From assembly GCA_944384985.1 (NCBI GenBank), contig CALWVM010000017.1, positions 1-46,478 of the forward strand: a DNA stretch of 46,478 nucleotides, given 5' to 3'. The notes under the pieces were generated by a model. The model did not search any database and had not been told where the DNA came from. It saw nothing but the letters and a program-made list of their open reading frames with translations. Numbering within the stretch: position 1 is the first letter of the stretch; each line of letters begins with the position of its first letter. The stretch is from an uncultured Clostridia bacterium. Lineage in GTDB: Bacteria > Bacillota > Clostridia > Oscillospirales > Acutalibacteraceae. This document shows positions 12,506 to 27,721 of this stretch, piece after piece. The position numbers were made by a program, and so were the translations under genes.

Positions 12506-13057
12506 TTGGACAGCGCTGCAAAACGACGGGCGGACAAGGGATTTACCGAAGCCTATGAAGCCTGCTATCTTTCTTTAATCAAATACTGTACGGTGCGCAT
12601 GGGCGACGCTCGCGCGCAGGCGGATGACTGTGTGCAAGAGGCTTTTCTGGTTTTTTACAACAAACTGCTTTGCGGCGAAACCATTCAAAATCCGTGCGCC
12701 TTTCTGTACCGCACGACCGACAATTTCCTGAAACAGGCGGTTTCGCGATATGCACGCGACCAAAAGTGGCACGTACCGCTGGAGGATGCCGGGCAGCTTG
12801 CCGACGAGCAGTCGCTTCCCTTTTCAAAAGAGGATCTGGATTACGATGCGTGCGCCAAGGCTCTGCTGCAAACGCTCTCTGAAGACGAGCAAACGCTTTA
12901 CCGGCTCAAATACATGGAAAAGCGAAGCCTGCGCGAGATCGCAGAACTCCTGGAGATCACGCCGGCAGCCGCCGCCAAGCGCACCTCGCGGCTGCGCGCC
13001 GCCGTTAAGGAAAAATTGACGCAAACCATTCAAGACCACGACAAAGGAGGGACTTGA
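12506..13057 (+). CDS. ECF-type RNA polymerase sigma factor
   Basis: 183-aa sigma-70 family protein of the ECF type. Region 2 (about residues 10-80) includes the DDCVQEAFLVFYNKL helix, and region 4 (about 115-170) has the SLREIAELLEITPAAAAKR helix-turn-helix. A long low-similarity linker joins them. Start is TTG at 12506; AAGGAGG is 12 bases upstream, slightly far. It ends one base before the next gene, the usual sigma/anti-sigma spacing. A 5-bp inverted repeat (TCATA/TATGA, 12454-12475) lies upstream but no clear own promoter was identified. Confidence 0.88.
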   Translation: MDSAAKRRADKGFTEAYEACYLSLIKYCTVRMGDARAQADDCVQEAFLVFYNKLLCGETIQNPCAFLYRTTDNFLKQAVSRYARDQKWHVPLEDAGQLADEQSLPFSKEDLDYDACAKALLQTLSEDEQTLYRLKYMEKRSLREIAELLEITPAAAAKRTSRLRAAVKEKLTQTIQDHDKGGT

Positions 13058-13058
13058 C

Positions 13059-14111
13059 ATGCAAGCCCTGATTGTAACCGATGAGATCCTGCAAGACCTG
13101 TGGGATGACTGCGGGTTCCTTGTCGAATGCAGACAGATTTTGACGGAAACAATGGACGCAGAGATCGCCAAGGGCGATGATATGGACTGTGATTTGCTCG
13201 ACGCATGTGCCGACGTCCTGCTGCTTTTGCAAACGGACGCGGCGGCGCATCCGGCGCCGCAAACGCTCGAAAGCTGCAAAAAGCTGCGCAAAAAAGTCTG
13301 CGCACGCTCCGCCTACGGAAGCAGACAGCGGCGTGCCCTGTACGCCGCCTGCGCCTGTGCGGTTTTACTGGTCGCTGCCGGCACCGCCGCTTCGCACACG
13401 GCGACCGGCGAAACCATCACCCGCAGCCTTTCCGAAAAAATCGCCGCACTGTTCGGCAGAGAGGAAACGACCCTACCCGCACCCGAACCGGAACCGGGTG
13501 AAACACAACCCGTGACCGAGTCTGTTACACAAACGCCGAGCGAGCCCGCCGAACCCGAAACCCGATCTTCGAAAAAGGCTGCGGCAGCAAAAGAAGTCAA
13601 AAACGAGCCTGCGCGCATTTACGGTGTTTTTTCCGATGCGCTTAAGACCGAATACTTCGTCGGCGAAAAGTTGGATATGGCCGGCGTGCGCGTTATGGTT
13701 GTTTATGCCGACGGCAGCGAGCGGGAGGTGCCGCTGGCAGACTGTACGGTGCAAACGGGAAGCGGTTTTTCACAGGATCCGGGCAAATACACCGTCACCG
13801 TATTTTACGAAGGGCTTTCTTTCAGCTACGGCGTAACGGTAAATGCCGTGCCGCAGAGCGTGATTCTCAATTCAATCTACGGCGTGTTCCCGCCGGATTA
13901 CACCTTTACGGTGCCGTCCTTGGACAATATCGACCTTTCCGGCATGACCGTCAAAGCGGTGTACTCTGACGGCAGCGAGCGCACGCTCACGTCCGAAGAA
14001 TACAAAATCACGGTTGAGCGCAATTTCATGGATCTGGCAAACAAGGCGCTCGTGACCGTCTCCTACGAAGAACGCGCATTTTCCTTTATCCTGACCGAGG
14101 AGGTACAGTAA
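13059..14111 (+). CDS. Probable anti-sigma factor with extracellular bacterial Ig-like (Big_3) domains
   Basis: 350-aa one-pass membrane protein. The cytoplasmic N-terminal 90 residues are helical and acidic without a clear zinc anti-sigma motif; one membrane segment is at about 93-112 (ALYAACACAVLLVAAGTAA). An acidic Pro/Glu/Thr linker (about 130-180) leads to two Big_3-like domains at about 187-270 and 275-350, each with the VYSDGSER / YTVTVFYEG type repeats. Position one base after an ECF sigma gene and this topology make it a likely anti-sigma factor that senses something outside the cell (inference). The anti-sigma activity itself is not proven by sequence. Confidence 0.75.
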   Translation: MQALIVTDEILQDLWDDCGFLVECRQILTETMDAEIAKGDDMDCDLLDACADVLLLLQTDAAAHPAPQTLESCKKLRKKVCARSAYGSRQRRALYAACACAVLLVAAGTAASHTATGETITRSLSEKIAALFGREETTLPAPEPEPGETQPVTESVTQTPSEPAEPETRSSKKAAAAKEVKNEPARIYGVFSDALKTEYFVGEKLDMAGVRVMVVYADGSEREVPLADCTVQTGSGFSQDPGKYTVTVFYEGLSFSYGVTVNAVPQSVILNSIYGVFPPDYTFTVPSLDNIDLSGMTVKAVYSDGSERTLTSEEYKITVERNFMDLANKALVTVSYEERAFSFILTEEVQ

Positions 14112-14112
14112 G

Positions 14113-16326
14113 ATGAAACGCAAAACCACCCGATTCCAAAAAGCTGCCGTGCTGCTGCTGATCCTGTCGATGCTGCTGACGGCGTTCCCCGTCGCCTCCT
14201 TCGCGCTCGAGACCGCAGACGGGCTTGTCTACACCACGCAGGACGGCGAGATCACGATCACGCAATACACGGGAGATGAAACGCAAATCGCCGTGCCTGC
14301 TTCCATCAACGGGAATCCCGTTACCGAGATCGCGCCGGGCGCGTTTTCCTATAAGCCGAAGCTGCAATCGGTGACGCTGCCCGAAACGGTTGAAACCATC
14401 GGCATGATGGCATTTTTCGCCAATGAAGCACTTTCGGAAATCAACATAGCCGAGCTGCAGGCCCTTACCTATATCGGCGCATACGCCTTTGCCGGTACAG
14501 CTATAGCAGGCGAGCTGACGCTGCCCGAAAGCGTGACGGAGATCGGCGCCGCCGCCTTTGGCATGACAAACCTTTCCGCGCTGCACTTAGGCAAAAATGT
14601 CGGTCCGGTGCGACCGCAAAGTGCAGAACCATGGGTCACGGTGTTCAAAAACGCGGGGATTGACCTTTCCAAGCTTCTCGGCATTAGTATTGATGTAAGC
14701 TTCCTGATTGAGCCTTACGAGACCACCGCACAGCAGAAAAACATCGCGCCCAACTGCAACCAGTTAAAGCGCATCACCGTGGACGATGCGAACCCCTATT
14801 ACCGCGCCTGGGGCGGTGTGCTTTTTAACCGCAATATGACGGAACTTTACTGCTACCCGGCGGGCAAGGCGGCAAGCATCTACATCATGCCCGCCACGGT
14901 CGAGCATTTTTACGACGCGTTCGGCGGGCTGTATCTGGCAAACGCCTCCATTCGCTATGTCGATGAACTGGATCTGATGGACAACGGCCTGATGCCGGAG
15001 GGCTGGACCGATTTCGGCGCCGCGCTGCAACTGGAAAACATCGTGCTTTCTGCAAATGTCAAGGAGATCAGCAAGGCTGCATTTTACAACACCGGCATTA
15101 CAAGCATTTTCATCCCGAAAAGCGTGACCTCCATTGGGGAAAAGGCGTTCTGGCACTGCCGCAGCCTCACCACCGTGGGCTTTGACCGCGGCTCGGTCTA
15201 CACCGAACTGCCAAAAGCATGTTTTCAGGACTGCGGCAAGCTGCAAAACGTGACGTTCGGCAAGATCGCATACCTTTCTGCGCTTGCTTTCGACGGCTGC
15301 ACGTCGCTCACATCCATTGACCTGACGAATGTTGCAGCGATAGACAGCAGCGCGTTTGACAACTGCGCAAACCTGGAAGAAGTCGTCTATCGCGACGACG
15401 GCAGTGCCGACAAGGCGACCGTTTCGGCAAAAGCGTTTCAGGATACCGATTCGCTTACGACCGTTTTGCTCGGCAACTCGGTGGAAAGCGTGGACGCCTA
15501 TGCATTCGCGGACTGCGACGCGCTTGAGACCGTCTATATCTCCGATGAGATCGAAAACATCAGCGACACGGCGTTTGACGGCAGTGACAACCTGACGATC
15601 GTTTGCCCGAGCGAGACGTGCTACGCTTACAGCTACGCGAAAGCAAACAACATCCCCGTCACAACGCTCGTGGTCTCACCCATTGCAAACCAGACTTTTA
15701 CGGGCTTCGCCATTGAGCCGGATCTGACCGTAAAAGCCAGCGGCAAGACGCTGACCAAAGACGTCGATTATGAAGTGTATTTTAAAGATAACGTAAGTAC
15801 GGGCACAGCGAGCGTGACCGTGCTCGGCAAGGGCGCTTACAGCATGTTCGCGAGCCTCGGCAAATTTGCGATTATGCCGCGTGACCTTTCCGACGGCGTG
15901 CTTTGCAGCGACATTGCCCAGCAGGTTGCGTCCGACGCGCCCTGCGAACCCAGCCTTGCACTGACCTGCGGCAGCTACATTCTGGAAGAAGGCACAGACT
16001 ATCTGCTCGCGTATTCCAACAACGCCGCACCCGGCACGGCAAGCGTCACGATCCGGGGCATCGGCAACTTCACGGGCGAACAGACTGTGACTTTTGAGAT
16101 TGCCGAAGCTGCCGACTCCCTGCCCGAGGAGATCCTCCCCGGCGACCTGAGCGGCGACGGCATGCTGGCACTGACGGATTATGCGCTGCTTGCGGATGCG
16201 TGCGTCGGCGCGCTGGAGCTTTCCGATGCGCAATTCGCAGCGGCAGACCTCAACGGCGACGGCGCCGTAGACGGCTTTGACCTCATGCTGCTGGATCTGA
16301 AACTGAACCGTTCCAAGACATTTTGA
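14113..16326 (+). CDS. Secreted BspA-type leucine-rich-repeat protein with C-terminal dockerin-like module
   Basis: 737-aa exported protein. A signal peptide ends near residue 32 (LLLILSMLLTAFPVASFA). Residues about 35-510 contain many LRR_5 (BspA-like) repeats of the form VTLPETVETIGMMAFFAN. Two Ig-like MBG/FGF-type repeats with the phrase GTASVT follow (about 520-675). The last 60 residues (677-737) hold two calcium-loop motifs, DLSGDGMLALTD and DLNGDGAVDGFD, typical of type-I dockerins. So the protein may attach to a cohesin-bearing scaffold. Start ATG is preceded by AGGAGG. It is the third gene behind the sigma/anti-sigma pair and is presumably their regulatory target or sensor partner (inference). 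Confidence 0.88.
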   Translation: MKRKTTRFQKAAVLLLILSMLLTAFPVASFALETADGLVYTTQDGEITITQYTGDETQIAVPASINGNPVTEIAPGAFSYKPKLQSVTLPETVETIGMMAFFANEALSEINIAELQALTYIGAYAFAGTAIAGELTLPESVTEIGAAAFGMTNLSALHLGKNVGPVRPQSAEPWVTVFKNAGIDLSKLLGISIDVSFLIEPYETTAQQKNIAPNCNQLKRITVDDANPYYRAWGGVLFNRNMTELYCYPAGKAASIYIMPATVEHFYDAFGGLYLANASIRYVDELDLMDNGLMPEGWTDFGAALQLENIVLSANVKEISKAAFYNTGITSIFIPKSVTSIGEKAFWHCRSLTTVGFDRGSVYTELPKACFQDCGKLQNVTFGKIAYLSALAFDGCTSLTSIDLTNVAAIDSSAFDNCANLEEVVYRDDGSADKATVSAKAFQDTDSLTTVLLGNSVESVDAYAFADCDALETVYISDEIENISDTAFDGSDNLTIVCPSETCYAYSYAKANNIPVTTLVVSPIANQTFTGFAIEPDLTVKASGKTLTKDVDYEVYFKDNVSTGTASVTVLGKGAYSMFASLGKFAIMPRDLSDGVLCSDIAQQVASDAPCEPSLALTCGSYILEEGTDYLLAYSNNAAPGTASVTIRGIGNFTGEQTVTFEIAEAADSLPEEILPGDLSGDGMLALTDYALLADACVGALELSDAQFAAADLNGDGAVDGFDLMLLDLKLNRSKTF

Positions 16327-16347
16327 ATGCACCCGTCCCATTTCGGC

Positions 16348-16386
16348 AGCCGCCGCGGCAAGATTTGCCGCGGCGGCTTTTTCTTG
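16348..16386 (+). terminator. Rho-independent terminator after the LRR-dockerin gene
   Basis: A 14-bp GC-rich stem (16348-16361 with 16365-16378, sequence AGCCGCCGCGGCAA) closed by a 3-nt loop is followed by TTTTTCTT. It ends the sigma/anti-sigma/LRR unit. Confidence 0.9.
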
Positions 16387-16454
16387 ATCTTTCGCCGGTT
16401 TATGCACATTCGATAGATTTCCGCCATATTTATAAATATTTCTTGTGTAGATGA

Positions 16455-16483
16455 TTGCTTTTTTTGCGGAAATACGGTATGAT
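16455..16483 (+). promoter_or_regulatory. Possible sigma-A promoter for the PI-PLC locus
   Basis: TTGCTT (16455-16460), 17-bp spacer and TATGAT (16478-16483). The predicted start near 16490 would place the ribosome site almost at the 5' end of the mRNA, so the assignment is tentative, but it is the only good candidate between the preceding terminator and the first gene. Confidence 0.4.
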
Positions 16484-16501
16484 ACTGGGGAGGTGTGCAT
16501 C

Positions 16502-17404
16502 ATGGAACAACCGCCGGTTCTGTCCGCACTTGCGGACGACCTTTTTCTTCCCTGTATCAATCTCGCCGGCACGCACGACAGCGCGACGGCGTTTTGCACC
16601 ATGCGCAAATTTGCGCAGTGCCAGAACACGACCATCGCTGAACAGCTGCAGCTCGGCGTGCGGCTTTTGGACATTCGCCTGCACCATGTGCGCGGGCGTT
16701 TTTTCCTGGTGCACAGCCGGGCGGATTGTTTTTCGGACAGCGCTTGCAAAACGCGCCTGCGCTTTGACGATGTTTTTGCGCAGTGTGTTTCGTTTTTGGA
16801 GCAAAACCCGCGCGAAGCACTGGTGATGAGCGTGAAATGTGACCGTGGGCACGAGAAAGCAAGCTTTTTCCCTGCGTTTTACGATGCGTTCATCCGCCCG
16901 AATACATCACTTTGGTATTTGGAAAATCAAGCGCCGACGCTCGGCGAATGCCGCGGCAAAATCGTGCTGCTGCGCCGCTGTCTGCGGCCGGCGGATTTTG
17001 AAAGCAAGGCGCACTGCGGGTTGGATTTTTCCGTTTGGGAAGATCAGAAATCGCGCCGAAAGACGGAGCCCGTGCACATGCGCATGAGCGAGAAGCTCTG
17101 CGCCGAGGTGCAGGACCGCTATCGCCTGCCGCCCGAAATCAAATGGACACGGTGCGCAAAGCCTTTTCTGGATATCGCGGTGCCCTCAAAGCAGCGCATC
17201 TGTCTGCACTTTTTGAGCACCTGCGGCGCTCCGGGCATCCCGGCGCAAAATGCCGAAATCGTTAACGCGCAGTTTGCGGCATACCCGCTGTGTGAAAGCC
17301 ACGCGCAGGGCTGGTTCTTTTTGGATTTCATCGACCGCGCGCTGTGCGACAAAATCACGCGCTCCAATGATTTGTTCTATGCTTTGCAGGAGGAAACGCC
17401 ATGA
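16502..17404 (+). CDS. PI-PLC X-domain phosphodiesterase (phosphatidylinositol phospholipase C-like)
   Basis: 300-aa protein with the bacterial PI-PLC catalytic signature: AGTHDSAT gives His25 and Asp26, LLDIRLH gives Asp57 and Arg59, and FFLVHSRA gives His71, matching the residues used by the Bacillus cereus enzyme (His32, Asp33, Asp67, Arg69, His82). This family cleaves phosphoinositide or glycosyl-phosphoinositide head groups through a cyclic inositol phosphate. Unlike the secreted bacterial enzymes, no signal peptide is visible from the ATG at 16502 (GGGGAGG eight bases upstream). It overlaps the next gene by 4 nt and opens an eight-gene run with phosphatases, an alpha-mannosidase and a sugar symporter. 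True substrate unknown. Confidence 0.85.
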   Translation: MEQPPVLSALADDLFLPCINLAGTHDSATAFCTMRKFAQCQNTTIAEQLQLGVRLLDIRLHHVRGRFFLVHSRADCFSDSACKTRLRFDDVFAQCVSFLEQNPREALVMSVKCDRGHEKASFFPAFYDAFIRPNTSLWYLENQAPTLGECRGKIVLLRRCLRPADFESKAHCGLDFSVWEDQKSRRKTEPVHMRMSEKLCAEVQDRYRLPPEIKWTRCAKPFLDIAVPSKQRICLHFLSTCGAPGIPAQNAEIVNAQFAAYPLCESHAQGWFFLDFIDRALCDKITRSNDLFYALQEETP

Positions 17405-18366
17405 AAAATGTCCTGATCGGCATTCTGATTGCTGCAGCCGTTCTGCTTGTGCTGCTTTTTCTGCTTTGCGGCTTTATTTTCAACCAGCTTGTGTGGCGCA
17501 AGACCTTTCGCCTGCCCCGCTTTCTTTCCAAGATCATTGCAGGCGGCGGCATTCGAAATGATACATATGAACACGACGCTGCCGCCGCGCTCGAGCATCT
17601 GAAATCGCTGCCGCTGCGGCGGCTTACGCTGACTGCGCCCGACGGTGCACAGCTCATTGCGCATCTTCTGGTGCCCGAAAAGCCGAATGGCAAGGCAGTG
17701 CTCGCCTGCCACGGGTCGAGAAGCACCGGGCTTCAGGAATTCCGTTTCACCGCGCCGGCTCTTTATGAAAAAGGCTACGTTGTGCTCATGCCCGACCACC
17801 GCGGATGCGGGGAGAGCGACGGGAAATACATGGGCTACGGCACGCATGAATCCACAGATTCGCTTTTGTGGGTGCAGTATCTGGAAACGCACTTCCCCGA
17901 TATGCCTATCTTCCTTTTGGGCGTATCCTTGGGCGGTGCGACGGTGCTGATGATGAGTGACCGCGTGAAAAACACGGCCGTGCGCGGCATCATCGCGGAC
18001 TGCGCGTACACCTCAGCTTGGGCGGAATTTTCCTATCAACTGCACACATCGTTCCATCTTCCCGACTTTCCGCTTCTGCACATTTGCGACCTGTACTGCC
18101 GCATGTTCTGCGGCTATTCCTTCCGCGACGCGTCGCCCATTGACGCGGTGCGCCGTGCAAATGCACCAATCTTATTCATCCACGGTGCGGACGACCTGTA
18201 TGTGCCGTACTATATGCAGGGCGAGCTGTACGACGCGTGCGTGACCGCAAAAGAAAAGCTGACCGTGCCCGGCGCTGTGCATGCGCGCAGCTTCTACACC
18301 GCACCGGACGCCTATATGGCGGCAATGGAGCAGTTTATTGCAAAATGCCTTGAGGATCAACCATGA
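17401..18366 (+). CDS. Alpha/beta hydrolase with N-terminal membrane anchor
   Basis: 321-aa protein: an N-terminal hydrophobic helix at residues 3-27, then a serine hydrolase domain. The GVSLGGA elbow puts the nucleophile at Ser176; FIHGADDLYVP supplies the acid and GAVHARS the histidine. The oxyanion stretch LACHGSRSTG precedes. The family includes esterases, acylhydrolases and thioesterases, so deacylation of a lipid head group would fit the context (inference). ATGA overlap with the PI-PLC gene and with the following gene indicates a tight operon. The helix may be a signal anchor that places the domain outside the membrane. Confidence 0.85.
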   Translation: MKNVLIGILIAAAVLLVLLFLLCGFIFNQLVWRKTFRLPRFLSKIIAGGGIRNDTYEHDAAAALEHLKSLPLRRLTLTAPDGAQLIAHLLVPEKPNGKAVLACHGSRSTGLQEFRFTAPALYEKGYVVLMPDHRGCGESDGKYMGYGTHESTDSLLWVQYLETHFPDMPIFLLGVSLGGATVLMMSDRVKNTAVRGIIADCAYTSAWAEFSYQLHTSFHLPDFPLLHICDLYCRMFCGYSFRDASPIDAVRRANAPILFIHGADDLYVPYYMQGELYDACVTAKEKLTVPGAVHARSFYTAPDAYMAAMEQFIAKCLEDQP

Positions 18367-18827
18367 AAACGCTTCTGGAAACCGACGCGCATCTTTTGCG
18401 CGCAAGTGAAAAAACAAACGTGGCGCTGACGTTTACAGTGCCCGAAGCTGTGTCTCTTTTGCGCATTACCTATTTCTATGCGCCGAAAACGCTCGACGGC
18501 GAGGCGGCGCGCCCCGCCATTGAAGCTTGCCTGCGGCGCGATGCAGGGGAATTTTATCCGGAATACCCGGACTGGACGCACTATCTGCCGCTCAAAAATC
18601 TTGTCACCCTCTCGCTCGACGCGCCCGACGGCTTCCGCGGCTGCGCGCACCGGCAGGCAGACCGGCAGGTCCATATTCTAAGCCGTGCGGAGGCTTCTCC
18701 CGGATTTCTGCCCGGGGAACTTGCTGCGGGGGAATGGAAACTGGTGCTGAACGTCCACGCGCTCGTCACCGAATTTTGCGACTGCCATATAAAGATCGAA
18801 GCGGAGGTGGACGGCTGTGGGGACTGA
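18363..18827 (+). CDS. Protein of unknown function, coupled to PHP hydrolase
   Basis: 154-aa protein with no recognised domain. Composition suggests a beta-sandwich (alternating hydrophobic residues, e.g. ALTFTVPEAVSLLRITYFY). The C terminus KIEAEVDGCGD overlaps the start of the next gene by 11 nt, and its start overlaps the previous stop, so it is translationally embedded between the hydrolase and the PHP protein. No signal peptide or membrane helix. Its strict coupling to the PHP gene suggests a subunit or accessory domain of that enzyme (inference). Confidence 0.7.
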   Translation: MKTLLETDAHLLRASEKTNVALTFTVPEAVSLLRITYFYAPKTLDGEAARPAIEACLRRDAGEFYPEYPDWTHYLPLKNLVTLSLDAPDGFRGCAHRQADRQVHILSRAEASPGFLPGELAAGEWKLVLNVHALVTEFCDCHIKIEAEVDGCGD

Positions 18828-19806
18828 ACGCTGGTTTGCCTGTGAGCTGCACTGCCACACCGTCCACAGCGACGGGGATTTCACCGTTCCCGGGCTTTTA
18901 GAAGCGGCGCGCACACGGCGGCTCGACGGCATTGCTTTGACGGACCACAACACCTTTTCCGGATATTTACAAGCACAAAACAGCCTTTCGCCCGTGGTGC
19001 TCGGCGGCATGGAATGGACGACCTATTTCGGGCATATGCTCGTGCTCGACTGCAAACGATATGTGGACTGGCGCGACGCGCTGCCCGACACCATTGACGA
19101 AAAAATGCGGCAAGTGCACGAAAGCGGCGGGCTGTGCGGCGTTGCGCACCCCTTCCAGCTTGGAACACCCATCTGCACGGGCGGGCACTGGGATTACCGC
19201 GTGCGTGACTGGTCGCTGGTCAACTACTTAGAGATCTGGTCGGAGGGGGCACCGTATCTGAACACTTCGAACCGTCGTGCGATTCGGCTGTGGGCGTCGC
19301 TTTTGGATCGAGGGTACCGCATTGCGCCGACCTTTGGGCGCGACTGGCACCGAACGCGCGGCAATCCCCTGCCGAGCGCGTGCACCTATTTATATTGTCC
19401 CGCGCCGCTGACGCCCGACGGCATGAAGCAAGCGCTGCGCCGCGGACGGACGGTCGTCTCGGCCGGGCCGCTCTTCACCGTGGAAACAGCGGATGGAAAG
19501 ACGTCGGGCGACTGCATTCCGGCGGTCCATACAGAATTCCGTTTCCGAACGGATACAACGCGCCTTTGCGCCCTGCAGACGGAAAACACCTTCGTTCCGC
19601 GTGAAATCCGTCTGTATACAAACGGGCTGCAAGAAATCCTGCGGCTGCCCGTTTCGGGAGAAGCACAGACCGCGCAAATCCCGCTTAACGCGGCGCAGTG
19701 GTACTGCGCCACCCTTTGGGGCGAAACGGACGGCAAAGCGAATACGCTGCTTGCCGTTTGCTCCCCTTTATATACACAACCTCATTCCAATCATAAGGAG
19801 AGATGA
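18817..19806 (+). CDS. PHP-domain metal-dependent phosphoesterase (CehA/McbA-like)
   Basis: 329-aa protein with the polymerase-and-histidinol-phosphatase (PHP) metal motifs: HCHTVHSDG (His12, His14, His17, Asp19), LTDHN (Asp43-His44), GMEW (Glu66), GVAHP (His111) and a C-terminal GRDWHR. Homologous CehA-type enzymes hydrolyse phosphodiesters or phosphomonoesters. A C-terminal beta-rich extension after residue 215 is typical of this subgroup. Start is GTG at 18817 with GGAGG upstream; it overlaps the preceding gene. No signal peptide, so a cytoplasmic step acting on an imported phospho-compound is plausible (inference). Confidence 0.88.
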   Translation: MGTERWFACELHCHTVHSDGDFTVPGLLEAARTRRLDGIALTDHNTFSGYLQAQNSLSPVVLGGMEWTTYFGHMLVLDCKRYVDWRDALPDTIDEKMRQVHESGGLCGVAHPFQLGTPICTGGHWDYRVRDWSLVNYLEIWSEGAPYLNTSNRRAIRLWASLLDRGYRIAPTFGRDWHRTRGNPLPSACTYLYCPAPLTPDGMKQALRRGRTVVSAGPLFTVETADGKTSGDCIPAVHTEFRFRTDTTRLCALQTENTFVPREIRLYTNGLQEILRLPVSGEAQTAQIPLNAAQWYCATLWGETDGKANTLLAVCSPLYTQPHSNHKER

Positions 19807-19810
19807 TGTA

Positions 19811-21286
19811 ATGCAAGCTGTGGAAGCCGCAAAAGAGCGGCGATACGTCGGCGTGAAGGAAACGGTGCTGTACGGCGTAGCCAACGGCGGGCAGGTCATC
19901 GGATACAACCTGATCCGCTCGCAGCTGACGTTCTACCTTGTTACGGTGTTCGGCGTACCGAGTGCGGCGGTCACGCTCATGGTGTTCGTACTCGGGCTTT
20001 GGGACGCCTTCAACGACCCGCTCATGGGCAGCATCGTGGACCGCACGCGCACACGCTACGGCAAGCTGCGCCCCTATCTGTTGTTTGTGCCCATCCCGTT
20101 GGGGATCGCCACCGTGGTCTTTTTCGGCGGGGCGGAATTCCTTTCGGGTGTGGAAAGCACCGCCGCCAAGATCGTGTATATGTGGATCACCTATTTTGTC
20201 TGGGAGTTCTTCTATACCATCGGCGACATCCCGTTCTGGGGGCTTTCCGCCGCCATTTCGCCGAGCCCCGGCGACCGCTCGCGCTGCATCACCTCGGCGC
20301 GTTTCCTTTCGAGCATCATCGGCGGCGTGGTCGGCATCGCGATCCCGGTCTTTATCGACTTAAGCACAGCGGGCACGATTTCGTGGGATCTCAAACAGGT
20401 ATTCCTCTTTATGGGCATCCTTGCTGCGACGGTCGGGATGCTGCTGTTCTTCCTCGGCGGCGCGTTTACACGCGAGCGCGTGGTGCAGAGCGCCGACGAG
20501 CCGAAGCTCCTCGATTGCTTCCGCTTCCTGTTCAAAAACAAACCGCTTCTGCTCATTGTGTTGTCCAACATTCTCGGCACGGTCGGCGGCATTGCGGACG
20601 TCTTTACGCAATACTACTATAAGCTCTCTTTGGGAATCGCGAGCCTTTCGATCCTTGCAGGCATTCCCGGCACGATCATGGGCTTTTTCGCTTACCTTTT
20701 GATCCCGTGGTTTGAAAAGCGGTGGAGTTCCAAGCAGATCGTGATCCGCATTGCGATCATTAAGGCGGTCGTGACGACCTGCATCTTCTTCCTCGGCTTC
20801 CGCCATTACACAGACCCGCGCGTGATCGTACCGCTTTTGAGTTTGCAGGGTTTCTTCACAAGCGCAGTTGCCAGCATTTCGATGGTCGTCCCCACCAAGA
20901 TGGTCGGCGACACGGTGGACTACATGGAGTGGAAAACCGGCGAACGCAACGAAGGCATGACCTTCAGCTTGCTGACCTTCATCAGCAAGCTGACCGGCTC
21001 TTTGAGCACGGGGATCGCAACACTCATTTTCCCGCTCATCGGGCTGCAGGAAGTCGGTGCGGACATGGTACTGGTCGAAGGCAGCGGCGTCAACACGCGG
21101 CTTTGGCTGTGGGGGCTTGTAACGATGATTCCGCAGGTTTTGAGCCTGATTTCTCTGATTCCCTATGCGTTCTATGACCTTGACGGCGACAAGCTTAAAA
21201 AGATTCAGTCGGACATCCGTCTGCACCGCGAAAAGCTGTCAAAAGAGATTACCACGCAGCACACGCAGGAGGAAAGCAATGGATAA
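19811..21286 (+). CDS. GPH-family sugar:cation symporter (MFS)
   Basis: 491-aa 12-helix transporter of the glycoside-pentoside-hexuronide:cation symporter family. The signature DAFNDPLMGSIVDRTRTRYG with the following GKLRPYLL is present near residues 60-90. GPH members take up sugars, oligosaccharides or uronides with Na+ or H+. Start ATG at 19811 has AAGGAG about 11 bases upstream; an in-frame extension to 19493 lies inside the PHP gene and is rejected. The gene sits between cytoplasmic phosphoesterases and the mannosidase, consistent with import of a mannoside or glycan fragment for intracellular cleavage (inference). Confidence 0.9.
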   Translation: MQAVEAAKERRYVGVKETVLYGVANGGQVIGYNLIRSQLTFYLVTVFGVPSAAVTLMVFVLGLWDAFNDPLMGSIVDRTRTRYGKLRPYLLFVPIPLGIATVVFFGGAEFLSGVESTAAKIVYMWITYFVWEFFYTIGDIPFWGLSAAISPSPGDRSRCITSARFLSSIIGGVVGIAIPVFIDLSTAGTISWDLKQVFLFMGILAATVGMLLFFLGGAFTRERVVQSADEPKLLDCFRFLFKNKPLLLIVLSNILGTVGGIADVFTQYYYKLSLGIASLSILAGIPGTIMGFFAYLLIPWFEKRWSSKQIVIRIAIIKAVVTTCIFFLGFRHYTDPRVIVPLLSLQGFFTSAVASISMVVPTKMVGDTVDYMEWKTGERNEGMTFSLLTFISKLTGSLSTGIATLIFPLIGLQEVGADMVLVEGSGVNTRLWLWGLVTMIPQVLSLISLIPYAFYDLDGDKLKKIQSDIRLHREKLSKEITTQHTQEESNG

Positions 21287-21536
21287 TAAATGCCCGAAGT
21301 GCGGCGCAAAGCTGCCGTGGTATTCCTTAAAACCCGAGTGCCCGAAATGCGGGTGCAACATCATGTATTACAATATGGAGGTTCGTCTCGCCGCCGATGC
21401 CGACAAAGCGGAAGCGGAGTGGGAAAAGGTGGACCGGCTGCTTTGGAAGCTCACGCCCAAGCGTTTCCGTAAAAATCGGGACGCGCAGCCTCAAACGGAA
21501 GATACGGGAGAAACGGAAAATGAAAACGATACATAA
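21279..21536 (+). CDS. Small zinc-ribbon protein
   Basis: 85-aa protein with two CPKC knuckles (Cys5, Cys8, Cys21, Cys24), a basic stretch (KLTPKRFRKNR) and a Glu/Asp/Thr-rich tail. The start ATG at 21279 has CAGGAGG upstream and overlaps the end of the symporter gene by 8 nt; its own end overlaps the following gene by 17 nt. It belongs to the operon but no function is recognised; a regulatory or metal-binding adaptor role is possible. Confidence 0.65.
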   Translation: MDNKCPKCGAKLPWYSLKPECPKCGCNIMYYNMEVRLAADADKAEAEWEKVDRLLWKLTPKRFRKNRDAQPQTEDTGETENENDT

Positions 21537-22761
21537 ACTGCTTGCCATTTTCTTATGCCTTGGGCTGATTTGCAGTCTGCCCTTTGCCGCATATGCACAA
21601 GATACGGAGGGAAACCCCTTGCAATTCCATGACGGTAAATTCAAAATTTTGGTTCTTGCGGATTTGCAGGATACCGACACCCCGCAAAAAGAAACCACCG
21701 CTATTATGACCGCGGCGCTCGACCAAACAGACCCCGACCTTGTGGTGCTTTTGGGCGACAACATTGCGGGCTACTGGAAAGGCGTAAATAAAGAAGCCAC
21801 CGAACGCGCCGTAGACGCCGTGGCAGCGCCCATCAACGAACGGGGCATCCCGTTTGCGCTCGTCTTCGGCAACCACGACCACGAAGGACTTTGCAGCGAC
21901 GAGGTCGGCATGACCGAAGAGGAAGCAAAGGAATTCTTGCTCACCTGCTTCCAGAAATACCCCACCTGTCTTGCTGTTGCCGGAGAAGAAATGACGGGGT
22001 ACTGCAATTACAATCTGCCCATTCTGGACAGCAACGGAGAAAAGACCGTCTTCAACCTGTGGTTCATGGACTCGAACCCTTACGCAACGGACGAAGAGGG
22101 CGGCGGATACGGTTATGTCCACGCCGACCAGACTGCCTGGTATCAACGCACATCTGATGCGCTCAAGGCGGCGAACGGCGGGGAAATCGTCCCCTCCCTT
22201 TTGTTCCAGCACATCATCGTGCCGGAGGTCTATGACATGCTCACCGAAACCTCGCGCGGCACAAAAGGCGCCAAGCGCGGGCACGGAAGCTTTTCGGAGC
22301 ATTACTATGTAGCGGACAACGTCTACCAGGGCGCCATGCGTGAAGCGCCCTGCCCGCCGGACGTAAACGCCGGGCAGTTCCAAAGCTGGGTGCAGCAGGG
22401 CGACATCATCGGCGCGTTCTTCGGGCATGACCATGTCAACGACTTTGCAGGCGTATATGAGGGCATCCCTCTGGTCGCGACGCCTGCCTGCACGTTTTAC
22501 AGCTACGGCAATCACCGCGGCGTGCGCACGATCACGCTTGATGAATCGGATCTGACCACGTTCCAATCTGATCTGCTGCTGTACGATGACCTGGTCGGCG
22601 AACGAGTCTGGAACCTTTATAAAGACCAGCACGGCTACGCCGAATACCGTTCGAACTTTCTCCCGGCATTTTTCGGGGCCCTGGGCGGTCTTGTTGTGCT
22701 GGGCTGCGCTGCGGCAGCAATCGTGCACACCGTAAAAAAACGCAAAGGGAAAGCAAAATAA
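21520..22761 (+). CDS. Exported, membrane-anchored metallophosphoesterase
   Basis: 413-aa calcineurin-like phosphoesterase with an N-terminal signal peptide (IFLCLGLICSLPFAAYA, cut near residue 24) and a C-terminal membrane helix at about 380-402 followed by KKRKGK. Metal motifs LADLQDTD, GDNIAG, GNHDHEG and GHDHVND are in order. The first motif is DxQ, not the more usual DxH, a variant known in a subset of these proteins. Extracellular phosphate release from a phospho-glycan would fit the operon. The ATG at 21520 has GGGAG nine bases upstream. Confidence 0.88.
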   Translation: MKTIHKLLAIFLCLGLICSLPFAAYAQDTEGNPLQFHDGKFKILVLADLQDTDTPQKETTAIMTAALDQTDPDLVVLLGDNIAGYWKGVNKEATERAVDAVAAPINERGIPFALVFGNHDHEGLCSDEVGMTEEEAKEFLLTCFQKYPTCLAVAGEEMTGYCNYNLPILDSNGEKTVFNLWFMDSNPYATDEEGGGYGYVHADQTAWYQRTSDALKAANGGEIVPSLLFQHIIVPEVYDMLTETSRGTKGAKRGHGSFSEHYYVADNVYQGAMREAPCPPDVNAGQFQSWVQQGDIIGAFFGHDHVNDFAGVYEGIPLVATPACTFYSYGNHRGVRTITLDESDLTTFQSDLLLYDDLVGERVWNLYKDQHGYAEYRSNFLPAFFGALGGLVVLGCAAAAIVHTVKKRKGKAK

Positions 22762-22837
22762 CCGGAATATCCTGTGAATCTTTCAGAAAGGAAAACGCCG
22801 CACAAGGCACAGAAAGCTTTTTTGCGGCACTTGACTT

Positions 22838-25800
22838 ATGAAACAGAACAAAAAGCCTACCATTTACACCGTCGCCACGGCGCATCTGGACACCGTTTGG
22901 AACTGGGATTTTGAAACGACCGTGCGCAAATACATCCCTGCAACGCTTCGGGAAAATTTCCGCCTGTTTGAAAAATACCCCGACTATGTGTTCAGCTTCG
23001 AGGGCAGCCGCCGCTATGAGCTGATGGAAGAGTATTACCCGGAGGACTTTGAACGGCTGCGCAAATATATTGCCGCGAACCGCTGGTTCGTTGCAGGCAG
23101 CGCCTACGAAAACGGCGATGTGAACGTTCCCTCGCCCGAAGCGCTGTTCCGCAATATCCTATACGGCAACCATTATTTCCTCAAAAAATTCGGCAAGACG
23201 AGCGTGGATATTTACCTGCCCGACTGCTTCGGCTTCGGGTACGCACTGCCAAGCATCATTAGGCATGCAGGGCTTTTGGGCTTCACCACGCAAAAGCTGA
23301 CGTGGAGTTCGGCATACGGCATCCCGTTTGATTTAGGGCTTTGGCAAGGCGTGGACGGCAGCCGCGTATATGCGTCGCTCGACGCGCAGGAATACAGCGC
23401 GTCGCTTGACGAAGTCCGTAAGCATAAAAACGCGCCGAACAAGCTTGAAAAGAACATCCGTGAATTTGACCTGCCCATGACCTATCTGCTGCACGGCGTG
23501 GGGGACCGCGGCGGCGCGCCAAAGGAAAAGTCGGTCAAGACCGTAGTTTCCGAAAAGCGGAAAAACGCTGCGGAAAGCGTCGATGTAGAAATTACGAATA
23601 CGGACAGCATCTTCCGCATAATGGATACGGAACTTTCCGCGCAGGATAAGAATAAGCTGCCCGTTTGGAACAACGAGCTGGTTTCGACCGATCATGGCGT
23701 GGGCGGGTACACCTCGCGGGCCTTGGGCAAGCGCTTAAACAAGCAGAACGAACAGCTTGCCGACGCCGCCGAACGATTTTCCGCAGCTGCCGCTTGGCTC
23801 GGCGCGGCCGAATACCCACAAGACGTACTCGACACCGCCTGGAAGCGCGTCATTGCGCACCAATTCCACGATGACCTGCCCGGCACCTCCCTTTCGCGTG
23901 TGTACCGGCGCAGCTGGAACGATTACACGCTTTCTCTCAATCAATTTGCGGGCGTGTATGAAAGTGCGGTACAGGCTCTCGCGCGGCAGATGAAGATCCC
24001 CTTCAAGCGTGGGATCACCGTCGCCGTTGCCAACCCCACGGGCACGGCGCGCAGCGGCGCGGTCGCACGCCGCGTTTCCTTGCCCGCAGGTACGAATTTT
24101 GTCCATGTTAAAGACGCGGCGGGCAAAGCCATGCCCAGCCAGCTTTGCAAAGACGGGACGGTCGTCTTTACGGCACACGTCCCCGCGAACGGCGTTGCCG
24201 TATACTGCATCACCCCCGCAAACAAGCCTTACACCGTAGACACGGGGCTGCATGTGACCGCGCGGACGCTCGAAAACCGAAAATACAAGGTCACGCTCGA
24301 CGACAACGGCGATATTGTATCCGTTTTCGATAAAGCTCTCCAAAAAGAGCTGCTCAAAGCGCCCGTTTGCATGGCACTGCACAAATATAACGGTTCAAAG
24401 CAGTGGCCCGCTTGGGAACTGGATTACAAGGAGGTCATGGCGCCGCCTGCCGCTTTCGCACGCGATCCGCAGTTTACAATCGTCGAGGACGGCAGCGCGC
24501 GCGTGGCAATCGAAACGCACCGCACTGCCGGAAAATCCGTGTTTTTCCAGCGCATCAGCCTGGGCGAAAGCGAAGATGTGGTGCGCGTGGACAATGAAAT
24601 TTTCTGGCAGGAGAAGCGGACGCTCCTGAAAACGCCGTTCGTGCTGACCGCCGAAAACGAACAGGCGTCTTATGATTTGGGGCTCGGCTTCATCCGCCGC
24701 GGCACGAATACGCCGAGGCTGTACGAAGTCCCTGCGCAGAACTGGGCGGACATCAGCGGCAAAGATTACGGCGTTTCGATTTTGAGCGACTGCAAATACG
24801 GCTGGGATCACCCTTCTGCTGACACACTGCGCCTAACAGGCCTGCATACGCCGCGCTTCGGCTTTTTGCCGGACAGCCATCAGGATCAGCTTGACCTTGG
24901 GCGCAATCGTTACGCATTCGGTATTTTCGGTCACGAAGGCGACAGCCTTGCCGCTACACAGGCGGCGGGTGCGGCATTCTGCCAGCCGCTGCGGGCGTTT
25001 GTAGTTCCGGGCAACCACGACGGGATCTTGCCGCCGGAATACGGTTTTGCCGAAATTTCGAACGATGCGGTGGTGCTGCGCGCCATCAAAAAGGCACAGG
25101 ACGACGCACGCCTTGTGGTACGTGTCAACGAAGGCACGGGAGCAAAGCAAAGCGGCGTACACCTTCGCATTGGCAACGGGATTCGAAAAGCGTGGATCTG
25201 CAACGCGCAGGAACAGCCGCTTAAAGCGATCCGTCCCCAAAAAGGCGAACTCGTATTTGACATTGCACCGTTTGCACCGATGACCTTCTTACTGGAACTG
25301 AAAGATTTCGGCAAGGCGGCAGCTGTGCCGCAGCAGATCCCGGTGCGTCTGCCGTACAATGTATCTTCTACTTCCCCGAACCGCAATCGCAAAGACGGCA
25401 TTTTCAGCGGATATTCGATCCCCGAAGAGCTGTTCCCCAAAACGATTCACTGTAAAGGAATTGACTTTACACTTTCCGAATCCACCCCGAATGCGGTATG
25501 CTGCTGCGGGCAGACGCTGCTACTCCCCACCGGGACAAAGGCAGTTGCGCTGGTTTTGACCTCCACCGCCGGAGACCGCACGCTCACCTTCCCGAACGGC
25601 GTGCAGGTGGAAATCCCCGACTGTCTGGAAGCGCTCGGCGCGGGCGACCTGTATGAGGGCAAGCACAAGCATACCGGCTACCGCAAGCTGTGCACGCTCG
25701 CGTATGAATTCACGCATCTGCACAAAGACGGTGCGGACGAGATCGCCAAGCAGGCGTACCTCTTCTTTGAGAAGATCCCTGTAAAGGAAAATCGCTTGAC

Positions 25801-25855
25801 GCTCCCCATCGCGGAAGATGTTACTGTCTTTGCCGCCACAGCGATTGTAGAGTAA
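22838..25855 (+). CDS. Alpha-mannosidase, glycoside hydrolase family 38
   Basis: 1005-aa retaining alpha-mannosidase with no signal peptide, so cytoplasmic. The GH38 catalytic domain shows AHLDTVWNW (His16, Asp18 as zinc ligands), the nucleophile in LPDCFGFG (Asp129) and a third zinc motif HQFHDDLPGTS (His341, His344). C-terminal beta-sandwich domains fill the rest. It cleaves alpha-linked mannose from oligosaccharides or glycans. The ATG at 22838 has only a weak ribosome site; the 76-bp gap after the preceding gene contains a 6-bp stem (22797-22802/22823-22828) that could affect initiation. It is the last gene of the locus and ends at a bidirectional terminator. Confidence 0.92.
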   Translation: MKQNKKPTIYTVATAHLDTVWNWDFETTVRKYIPATLRENFRLFEKYPDYVFSFEGSRRYELMEEYYPEDFERLRKYIAANRWFVAGSAYENGDVNVPSPEALFRNILYGNHYFLKKFGKTSVDIYLPDCFGFGYALPSIIRHAGLLGFTTQKLTWSSAYGIPFDLGLWQGVDGSRVYASLDAQEYSASLDEVRKHKNAPNKLEKNIREFDLPMTYLLHGVGDRGGAPKEKSVKTVVSEKRKNAAESVDVEITNTDSIFRIMDTELSAQDKNKLPVWNNELVSTDHGVGGYTSRALGKRLNKQNEQLADAAERFSAAAAWLGAAEYPQDVLDTAWKRVIAHQFHDDLPGTSLSRVYRRSWNDYTLSLNQFAGVYESAVQALARQMKIPFKRGITVAVANPTGTARSGAVARRVSLPAGTNFVHVKDAAGKAMPSQLCKDGTVVFTAHVPANGVAVYCITPANKPYTVDTGLHVTARTLENRKYKVTLDDNGDIVSVFDKALQKELLKAPVCMALHKYNGSKQWPAWELDYKEVMAPPAAFARDPQFTIVEDGSARVAIETHRTAGKSVFFQRISLGESEDVVRVDNEIFWQEKRTLLKTPFVLTAENEQASYDLGLGFIRRGTNTPRLYEVPAQNWADISGKDYGVSILSDCKYGWDHPSADTLRLTGLHTPRFGFLPDSHQDQLDLGRNRYAFGIFGHEGDSLAATQAAGAAFCQPLRAFVVPGNHDGILPPEYGFAEISNDAVVLRAIKKAQDDARLVVRVNEGTGAKQSGVHLRIGNGIRKAWICNAQEQPLKAIRPQKGELVFDIAPFAPMTFLLELKDFGKAAAVPQQIPVRLPYNVSSTSPNRNRKDGIFSGYSIPEELFPKTIHCKGIDFTLSESTPNAVCCCGQTLLLPTGTKAVALVLTSTAGDRTLTFPNGVQVEIPDCLEALGAGDLYEGKHKHTGYRKLCTLAYEFTHLHKDGADEIAKQAYLFFEKIPVKENRLTLPIAEDVTVFAATAIVE

Positions 25856-25873
25856 GCACAGGACACAAAAAAC

Positions 25874-25910
25874 AACAGCGGAGAAACCACATGGTTTCTC
25901 CGCTGTTTGT
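25874..25910. terminator. Bidirectional terminator between GH38 and transketolase genes
   Basis: A perfect 15-bp stem (AACAGCGGAGAAACC 25874-25888 with GGTTTCTCCGCTGTT 25893-25907) with a 4-nt loop. On the plus strand it is followed by TTTGTTT and on the minus strand by TTTTTTGTG, so it can stop the two convergent units. Confidence 0.88.
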
Positions 25911-25928
25911 TTATAATCTGTAAAATCT

Positions 25929-26876
25929 TTAGCCTTTTAAGGCGACGGCCTGTTTTGCCTTTTCGGCAATGTGGGCGGCGTCCAGCCCGTAGATATGCAA
26001 AAGCTCCACGGCGGGGCCGGATTTGCCGAATACATCCTCCACGCCGACGCGCAGCACCGGTACGGGAACCGTCTCGCAGATCACTTCTGTGACCGCGCCG
26101 CCGAGACCGCCGAGAACGCTGTGCTCCTCCGCAGTGACCAAAGCGCCTGTCTTTTTCGCGGAATCGATCAGAATATCACGGTCGATCGGCTTGATGGTCG
26201 CCATGTTGACGACGCGCGCCGAAACACCTTCATTTTGCAATGTTTCCGCCGCCATAAGCGCTTCATTGACCATCAGACCCGTGGCGACGATCGTGACATC
26301 CGTGCCCTCGCGAAGCACCGCGCCCTTGCCGATCTCGAATTTATAATTTTCATCGAACACGCGCGGCACGGCCAGCCTGCCAAAGCGCATATACACGGGG
26401 CCGTCATGCTCTGCTGCGGCGAATACACAGGCGCGCGCTTCAATATCGTCCGCGGGGTTGAGCACCACCATGCCGGGAATAGAGCGCATCAGGGCGATAT
26501 CCTCGCAGCACTGGTGGCTCGCGCCATCCTCACCGACAGAAATGCCCGCATGCGTCGCGCCGATCTTGACGTTCAAATGCGTATAGCCGATGGAATTGCG
26601 CACCTGCTCAAACGCTCTGCCTGCCGCAAACATAGCAAATGAGCTTGCAAACACGATGTGCCCCGTTGCGGCAAGCCCCGCCGCAACGCCCATCAAATTG
26701 CTTTCGGCAATGCCGACGTCAATGAAGCGTTCGGGAAACGCTTTTTTGAACATTCCCGTCTTGGTCGCCGCCGCAAGGTCCGCGTCGAGCACCAGGATCT
26801 TATCGTTTTGCTCGCCCAGTTCCACGAGCGCCTTACCGTAGGCTTCTCTTGTTGCGCATTTAATCGCTTCTGCCAT
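25929..26876 (-). CDS. Transketolase, C-terminal (Pyr and C) subunit
   Basis: 315-aa half of a split transketolase holding the pyrimidine-binding and C-terminal domains; it includes the GVAAGLAATG and the SVGEDGASHQCCEDIALMR regions. Paired with the N-terminal subunit gene just upstream (2-nt gap), it forms the thiamine-diphosphate enzyme that transfers two-carbon units in the pentose phosphate pathway. Split transketolases are common in clostridia and archaea. The ATG at 26876 has GGAGGCG upstream. It is the last gene of the long minus-strand run. Confidence 0.93.
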   Translation of the reverse strand: MAEAIKCATREAYGKALVELGEQNDKILVLDADLAAATKTGMFKKAFPERFIDVGIAESNLMGVAAGLAATGHIVFASSFAMFAAGRAFEQVRNSIGYTHLNVKIGATHAGISVGEDGASHQCCEDIALMRSIPGMVVLNPADDIEARACVFAAAEHDGPVYMRFGRLAVPRVFDENYKFEIGKGAVLREGTDVTIVATGLMVNEALMAAETLQNEGVSARVVNMATIKPIDRDILIDSAKKTGALVTAEEHSVLGGLGGAVTEVICETVPVPVLRVGVEDVFGKSGPAVELLHIYGLDAAHIAEKAKQAVALKG

Positions 26877-26878
26877 AA

Positions 26879-27721
26879 TTACGCCTCCAATTCTGCCAAA
26901 GCGGCGTTCAGTTCGGACATGGCCTGCTCATACTGCTCGGTATTCGGCGCACTGCCGTGCCAGCCAACGGCGTTTTCCATATACGAAACGCCCTTGCCTT
27001 TGATGGTTTTCATCACGATGGCGGTCGGCTTATCTTTGCACGCATCCGCAGCGGCAAATGCACTTTCGATCGCGTCGAAATCGTGCCCGTCGATTTCGAC
27101 GGTGTTCCAGTTGAAGGCCCGGAACTTTTCGGCTATGGGATACGGCGCGTTGACTTCGTCCATCGTGCCGTCAATTTGCAGGTTGTTGTTGTCAATGACG
27201 GCGGTGAGATTGGAAAGCTTATGGTTGCCGGCGAACATCGCCGCCTCCCAGACCTGGCCTTCCTGCAATTCGCCGTCGCCGAGGATCGCGTACACACGGT
27301 AGCCGGCTTTGTCGAGCTTTGCGCCGAGCGCCATGCCCACCGCAGCGGAAATCCCCTGCCCCAAAGAGCCGGTGCTCATATCCACGCCGGGGACCTTGTC
27401 CATGTTCGGGTGGCCCTGCAGGTAGCTGTCGGCCTTGCGCAGCGTTTTGAGATCCTCCACCGGGAAGAAGCCCTTGAGCGCAAGCGCGGCATACAGCGCG
27501 GGTGCGGCATGCCCTTTCGAGAGCACAAGACGGTCACGGTCGGACGCTTTCGGATTTTTGGGGTCTACGTGCATGCGGATGTTATACAGGTAGCTGAGCA
27601 CATCGCAAATGGAAAGCGAACCGCCGGGATGCCCCGCTTTTGCGTGATACACACCGTCGAGCACACCCATGCGCGCTTTGGTTGCAAAGATTTGCAGCGC
27701 TTTTTTGGTTGCCTGCTCCAT
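26879..27721 (-). CDS. Transketolase, N-terminal (thiamine diphosphate-binding) subunit
   Basis: 280-aa half with the thiamine diphosphate motif GDGELQEGQVWEAA, ending with a conserved NNN at the end of the motif, and the N-terminal GHPGGSLSICDVLSYLY region. Works with the adjacent C-terminal subunit. ATG at 27721 has AGGAGG upstream. The start is 2 bp after the HAD-phosphatase stop, so it is co-transcribed with that gene and with rluD and lspA. Confidence 0.93.
   Translation of the reverse strand: MEQATKKALQIFATKARMGVLDGVYHAKAGHPGGSLSICDVLSYLYNIRMHVDPKNPKASDRDRLVLSKGHAAPALYAALALKGFFPVEDLKTLRKADSYLQGHPNMDKVPGVDMSTGSLGQGISAAVGMALGAKLDKAGYRVYAILGDGELQEGQVWEAAMFAGNHKLSNLTAVIDNNNLQIDGTMDEVNAPYPIAEKFRAFNWNTVEIDGHDFDAIESAFAAADACKDKPTAIVMKTIKGKGVSYMENAVGWHGSAPNTEQYEQAMSELNAALAELEA

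Follow-up and report, generated by a model that had tools for sequence, protein, structure and literature searches.

The phosphatidylinositol-specific phospholipases C (PI-PLCs) known from bacteria, such as those of B. cereus, Listeria and S. aureus (PF00388), are mainly secreted, membrane-attacking enzymes, and CehA, of the CehA/McbA metallohydrolases (NF038032), is a carbaryl hydrolase. The usual description of the myo-inositol (iol) pathway has, to our knowledge, no phosphodiester-cleaving front end, and glycerophosphodiesters are utilised through a glycerophosphodiester phosphodiesterase (GDPD) and an ABC importer. Here we describe an operon-like cluster of eight genes in an uncultured gut bacterium of the Clostridia that brings the first two families together. 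The window, a stretch of 46,478 nucleotides forming one contig (CALWVM010000017.1) of a 2.1-Mb genome, encodes at 16502–25855 a PI-PLC-type phosphodiesterase (PLC) and a CehA/McbA-family enzyme divided over two genes (U154 and PHP), followed by a GPH-type symporter. On balance we favour the view that the operon serves to salvage, inside the cell, an inositol-1-phosphodiester from outside, a reading that draws on the gene set, the conserved pairing, the residues kept, the co-occurrence with iolE, the genome's own iol operon and the lack of an Ino1 match.

Papers are cited here by PMC number and from excerpts. Known PI-PLC enzymes act on membranes (PMC9572076). PI-PLC and GDPD form one superfamily, in which PI-PLC stops at the cyclic phosphate and GDPD opens it (PMC9842563), and inositol 1,2-cyclic phosphate is only poorly hydrolysed by PI-PLC, with a Km of 90 mM (PMC9572076). 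An intracellular pathway starting with PI-PLC would therefore need a partner enzyme able to open the cyclic phosphate and release inositol. Elen0235, a cyclic phosphodiesterase of the PHP family, both opens the ring of a cyclic phosphate and cleaves off the phosphate (PMC11656708). The excerpt of a gut review (PMC12482443) does not mention phosphodiester, cyclic, glycero or phospholipase. No description of a PLC paired with U154-PHP was found among the literature matches listed, which came from open-licence papers and covered the pairing, hydrolases of cyclic inositol phosphate and the use of glycerophosphoinositol by bacteria.

On the + strand of the window, PLC (16502–17404) is separated by one gene from U154 (18363–18827), and PHP (18817–19806) begins with GTG and overlaps U154 by 11 nt. 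A profile search of named genomes returned 416 relatives, of which the best-scoring 80 were kept for locus counts; these are the closest relatives, and the fractions are hence not those of a random sample. In tblastn searches with the proteins of the window (at E 1e-5 or better), U154 and PHP were each matched in all 80 loci, PLC in 68, the GPH symporter in 28, a zinc-ribbon protein in 21, a metallophosphoesterase (MPE) in 13, a GH38 alpha-mannosidase family protein in 12 and an alpha/beta hydrolase (ABH) in 11. U154 lies directly upstream of PHP in 80/80 loci, and PLC is either upstream and codirectional with the pair (22 loci) or divergent from it (46 loci). Five of the 12 loci without PLC (L088, L089, L129, L130 and L152) have less than 2 kb of contig upstream. 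Among 150 genomes of the window's own family, seven besides the window's hold a PHP homologue of more than 200 bits; U154 adjoins PHP in all seven, and a PLC homologue is there in six. A search for the same gene order in other Clostridia had been suggested by an earlier, sequence-only reading of the window, and the order does recur in other genomes, in its complete eight-gene form in L077–L080; among the nearest relatives are Candidatus Fimenecus and further uncultured Clostridia of the gut. Of 42 PHP sequences chosen for a tree, the 26 linked to PLC are separated from the others with one change (support 80/91), the labels having been assigned by the author from neighbouring genes and, for L169, from a metallo-beta-lactamase-fold gene only. 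Two unlabelled rows without PLC, L092 and L095, fall inside the PLC-linked part; these loci and L094 keep ABH, U154, PHP, GPH, the zinc ribbon and GH38, with no PLC matched. The conserved unit is the PLC together with the split PHP enzyme, to which one branch adds the GPH importer and the zinc ribbon.

The window PLC, a protein of 300 residues, matches PI-PLC-X (PF00388) at 23.9 bits (cut-off 23.1). Against solved chains it reaches 7.8e-8 on its own (4rv3), and a profile of 15 family sequences reaches E 2.7e-44 at best (2plc). The five catalytic residues that the sequence-only reading had pointed out, H25, D26, R59, H71 and D275, are indeed present, and they correspond to His32, Asp33, Arg69, His82 and Asp274 of the Bacillus enzyme (PMC4934513, PMC9572076), the correspondence being set by the order of motifs and by aligning the sequences with the S. 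aureus and Listeria enzymes. In an alignment of 52 PLCs (the window's and 51 of 65 usable sequences), equivalents of H25, R59, H71 and D275 occur in 52/52 and of D26 in 51/52; the inositol contacts K112, R159, W179, D205 and S239 are kept throughout, and position 207 is tyrosine in 31 sequences and phenylalanine in 21. The window PLC is thus like the known bacterial PI-PLCs in sequence family and in catalytic and inositol-contact residues, but differs from them in lacking a visible signal peptide and the tryptophans at the membrane-inserting places, and in having a PHP partner gene. Bacillus PI-PLC inserts Trp47 of helix B and Trp242 of the β7-αG segment into membranes (PMC4934513, PMC9572076), and a tryptophan is found in the helix-B segment of none, and in the β7-αG segment of one, of the 52 sequences.

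The PLCs linked to U154-PHP begin about 20 residues ahead of the GTHD motif and carry no signal peptide, judged by inspection, as were all signal peptides and membrane segments reported here (PLC, ABH, MPE, GH38 and other PLCs); two unlinked PLCs, in G085 and G073, do have one. When up to 90 in-frame residues upstream were scanned crudely for hydrophobicity, 11 of the 68 linked PLCs were flagged; secretion was rejected for these loci because the flagged stretches that were inspected precede the likely ATG, in a promoter-like region. With neither a visible signal peptide nor membrane-inserting tryptophans, the PLC is probably cytosolic, and its substrate would be soluble and intracellular.

The PHP protein matches the CehA/McbA metallohydrolases (NF038032) at 228.6 bits (cut-off 80), a more exact placing than the PHP phosphoesterase of the sequence-only reading, whose family names are otherwise borne out by Pfam and NCBIfam. 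All nine tri-metal ligands (H12, H14, D19, H44, E66, H73, H111, D176 and H178) are present in 59/59 sequences. Its neighbour U154, of 154 residues, has no Pfam match and no match among solved chains; of eight members of its family, single ones match five different Pfam families (E 0.003 or worse), none consistently, and a relative in L076 matches DUF6669. U154 is matched to the fused CehA/McbA protein of L013 by tblastn (4e-6) and to the N-terminal parts of eight fused CehA/McbA proteins by hhalign (probability 98.9%), and in L161, L162 and L163 a single open frame corresponds to U154 plus PHP. By these comparisons U154 is the split-off N-terminal domain of the fused CehA/McbA enzymes. Across 60 U154 sequences (the window's and 59 of 79 usable) P41, N79, T82, G93, H96, R97, G114, G123 and H132 are invariant, and the invariant histidines and arginine suggest that U154 helps to bind the substrate. 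The window enzyme shares with the CehA/McbA metallohydrolases the PHP catalytic domain, the nine metal ligands and the N-terminal domain, and is distinguished by its division into two genes, the invariant H96, R97 and H132 in the N-terminal part, and the partner phosphodiesterase.

The window genome carries a separate iol operon. Four of its proteins exceed curated cut-offs, namely iolG (459.9 against 355 bits), iolA (MMSDH; 552.4 against 448.5), iolE (419.9 against 290) and iolD (914.2 against 715), and frames recognised as iolB and iolC lie between iolD and an aldolase. Within the family-level sample, iolE is over cut-off in 31/150 genomes overall and in 12/15 of those with a PLC at 77 bits or more (p 2.5e-7), or in 12/13 when the two signal-peptide PLCs are left aside. 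Genome sizes are known for 123 of the 150; among the 96 of at least 1.7 Mb, iolE accompanies 12/14 PLC genomes versus 19/82 others (p 1.3e-5). At a lower PLC threshold (E 1e-3) it is present in 15 of all 23 genomes with a PLC match (p 3.5e-7), and all seven genomes with linked PLC-PHP, the window's included, possess it. A second family gives 20/21 PHP genomes with iolE versus 46/87 overall, a pattern mostly at genus level (5/5 PHP genera versus 6/15 genera, p 0.002). No match to Ino1, the inositol-1-phosphate synthase, was obtained in any of 16 genomes tested, including the window's; inositol therefore probably comes from outside, and inositol lipids of the cell's own were rejected as the substrate. 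The interpretation offered by the sequence-only reading is partly supported: the theme common to the loci is an inositol phosphodiester and not a mannose glycan.

In the route that we propose, whose reactions, cytosolic location, cargo and use of the cyclic phosphate by PHP are predicted from sequence, the GPH symporter (19811–21286, + strand; TIGR00792, 260.4 bits, cut-off 231.35) would import a soluble inositol phosphodiester, either glycerophosphoinositol or a glycosylated relative. In the window's lineage a cytosolic GH38 enzyme (22838–25855, + strand) could strip alpha-mannose from the imported compound as an optional step. The cytosolic PLC would then use the inositol 2-OH to attack the phosphodiester, so that inositol 1,2-cyclic phosphate and an alcohol are formed; U154 and PHP, together one metallohydrolase encoded by two genes, would open the cyclic phosphate and remove the phosphate; and the inositol released would enter the iol pathway encoded elsewhere in the genome. 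Since PLC uses the inositol 2-OH, any mannose on this hydroxyl would have to be removed by GH38 before PLC could act. More tentatively, the locus may represent a previously undescribed intracellular inositol-phosphodiester route of gut Clostridia, with a cytosolic PI-PLC that makes inositol 1,2-cyclic phosphate, U154 plus PHP as two subunits of a dedicated CehA/McbA-type enzyme serving as the bacterial inositol cyclic phosphate phosphohydrolase, and swappable glycosidases (GH38, GH4 and GH43) matching different dietary or microbial inositol glycans. If so, a cytosolic PI-PLC branch with a cyclic-phosphate-opening partner and inositol catabolism would give PI-PLC a nutritional role, one CehA/McbA subfamily would gain a natural function, and gut Clostridia would have a route to phosphoinositide-derived food. 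That the split PHP enzyme hydrolyses inositol cyclic phosphate is a new and testable claim, and what becomes of inositol 1,2-cyclic phosphate in bacteria can be tested directly with two purified components.

Several observations weigh against the salvage route. An even sampling of the order (295 genomes) yields 11 with a PHP relative at E 1e-40. PLC accompanies it in two of them, the window's and G021; the other nine, all of one other family, have a strong PHP relative and no PLC. The association with iolE is in part genus-level ancestry, and iolE is missing from three of the 15 PLC genomes (G057, G073 and G085), from G119 and G095 (PHP relative, no PLC) and G229, and from four more distant PLC genomes of other families (G208, G236, G308 and G385), three of whose PLCs look exported from their N-termini (L172, L173 and L174). 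Nor do iol genes lie beside the cluster: a search for IolG, A, E, D and J at E 1e-30 found, within the 80 related loci (L077–L156), a single IolJ-like gene, in L117, and the wider search, which added L059–L076 and L161–L175, found outside the iol locus L175 only one further gene, a 29%-identical IolA-like gene in L065. In the 46 divergent loci, PHP never has GPH as its immediate downstream neighbour. PHP scores 28.8 bits against NF041661 (phosphoribosyl 1,2-cyclic phosphate diesterase, Elen0235 type), far under the cut-off of 500; it was rejected as an Elen0235-type enzyme, and the likeness retained is one of proposed chemistry, between different PHP subfamilies. The phosphatase role of 3e38 is itself an assumption (PMC11656708).

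How far mannose belongs to the system bears on what the substrate is. The sequence-only reading had proposed one shared substrate, a mannose-containing phospho-glycan such as a glycosylphosphatidylinositol (GPI) glycan, a phosphatidylinositol mannoside (PIM) or phosphomannan. The shared substrate survives in so far as an inositol-type phosphodiesterase goes with a second phosphoesterase and an importer; mannose as its core does not, the mannosidase not being conserved with the phosphodiesterase (12/80 loci versus 68/80). With GH38 in few loci and GH4 or GH43 in others, mannose is not part of the conserved function, and phosphomannan was rejected as a poor fit, given the conserved inositol contacts of PLC and the co-occurrence with iolE. 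In the lineage to which the window belongs, the substrate may be a mannosylated inositol phosphate (a fungal head group, or the core of a GPI or PIM). That such a compound (a fungal Man-alpha-inositol head group, a GPI glycan or a PIM) is the natural substrate, with GH38 acting first where mannose sits on the 2-OH, is a less probable reading: GH38 stands at the end of the cluster, lacks a visible signal peptide and finds its best solved match in the Ams1 alpha-mannosidase (E 1.6e-71), and the cores of fungal glycosylinositol phosphorylceramides bear Man(α1-2)Ins or Man(α1-6)Ins (PMC6151786), but besides the sparse distribution of GH38 the window genome has two other GH38 genes. Somewhat more doubtful is a plain inositol 1-phosphate monoester phosphatase, supplied with monoester by PLC or GDPD and without a dedicated cyclic-phosphate step. 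PHP proteins are well known as phosphatases (PMC11656708), and U154-PHP adjoins GDPD-family genes, whose products open their own cyclic intermediate (PMC9842563), in L154 and L161–L163; loci with PLC, however, would still need an opener, as PI-PLC stops at the cyclic phosphate (PMC9842563) and is poor at hydrolysing it (PMC9572076).

General phosphate scavenging or lipid turnover, with PLC working from within on the bacterium's own membrane and an incidental connection to inositol, seems quite improbable. In 17 loci the gene immediately after PHP encodes a Na/Pi cotransporter with a PhoU domain, and 18 loci have a response regulator cluster (the overlap of the two sets was not counted), but the lack of an Ino1 match makes own inositol lipids unlikely, and the conserved inositol contacts and the iolE co-occurrence speak against it as well. 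That neighbours of unrelated function share a promoter by chance is hardly credible. ABH, the zinc ribbon and MPE have no assigned role, but PLC, U154 and PHP keep together in both the codirectional and the divergent arrangement, and PLC and PHP distance matrices correlate with r 0.89 (63 of 68 loci), though shared ancestry alone could give this value.

The remaining genes vary between lineages. GPH, with inositol compounds as its proposed cargo, is directly downstream of PHP in 24/80 loci, or 25 with L098, which the position filter dropped because its alignments overlap by 3 nt. The zinc-ribbon protein (21279–21536) gives a sub-threshold LysW match (22.9, cut-off 53.2). MPE (21520–22761) matches PF00149, finds no match among solved chains, and has a signal peptide and a C-terminal anchor; ABH (17401–18366) has an N-terminal transmembrane segment. 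GH38 exceeds the cut-offs of PF01074, PF09261, PF07748 and PF17677, its N-terminal, middle and C-terminal domains all being present, and close homologues of 60–88% identity occupy the same place in 10/80 loci. Sixteen loci have a GH4 gene upstream of U154, and in 16 of the divergent loci PLC is followed by a GH43 gene. These and the Na/Pi genes were found by clustering crude reading frames and checking one representative of each in Pfam; the GH4 representative resembles alpha-galactosidases and the GH43 one arabinanases, but the scores of both fall far short of the NCBIfam cut-offs. Removal of mannose is a trait of the lineage and not core, and GH38, MPE and ABH are lineage accessories. The two further GH38 genes of the same genome (G000:C14 and G000:C2; L074 and L075) are 25–27% identical to the window's.

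U154-PHP is also found with other partners in loci without PLC. It occurs with GDPD-family genes and an ABC importer in L154 and L161–L163 (Pfam check on L154 and L161), a setting like known glycerophosphodiester utilisation, from which the window differs in having PI-PLC and a GPH symporter instead. Elsewhere (L155 and L164–L166; Pfam check on L166) it accompanies a sodium:solute symporter and a metallo-beta-lactamase-fold protein, with an MgtC-like gene in most, and the substrate there may differ. In L152 (Anaerolineaceae) U154-PHP adjoins a phosphonate-type ABC transporter with a phosphonate-binding protein. The PIG-L/LmbE deacetylase family is known from GlcNAc-inositol compounds; near an ABC importer and U154-PHP, L170:14653-15465 reads like a gene of this family.

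The eight open frames all lie on the + strand and overlap or nearly so, as the sequence-only reading had it. From PLC to GH38, successive genes overlap by 4 (PLC and ABH), 4 (ABH and U154) and 11 nt (U154 and PHP), are separated by a 4-nt gap (PHP and GPH), overlap by 8 (GPH and the zinc ribbon) and 17 nt (the zinc ribbon and MPE), and are separated by 76 nt before GH38. A strong intrinsic terminator with a 14-bp stem and a T tail (16348–16378, + strand) stands between an upstream leucine-rich repeat (LRR) gene and the cluster, and another with a 15-bp stem (25874–25907, listed on both strands) lies just beyond GH38; of 26 terminator-like sites in the scan (14.5 expected), these two have the longest stems. 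Eight genes between two terminators fit one transcript. A scan of 16100–26000 returned three promoter-like sites (4.9 expected), all on the minus strand and none on the + strand, so that the promoter was not located and co-transcription is likely rather than shown. By eye, a sigma-70-like promoter (TTGATA, 17 nt, TATAxT) recurs in many of the divergent PLC-U154 intergenic regions of L103–L156, where it overlaps a palindrome resembling TCAATTGA that may be an operator. Directly upstream of the cluster (12506–16326) are an ECF-sigma-like gene (by reading) and genes for a Big_3 protein and a BspA-type LRR protein with a dockerin domain, and L077 keeps the Big_3-LRR pair ahead of the same cluster. 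Just past the downstream terminator, on the minus strand (25929–27721), a transketolase is apparently encoded, by reading, as two adjacent genes.

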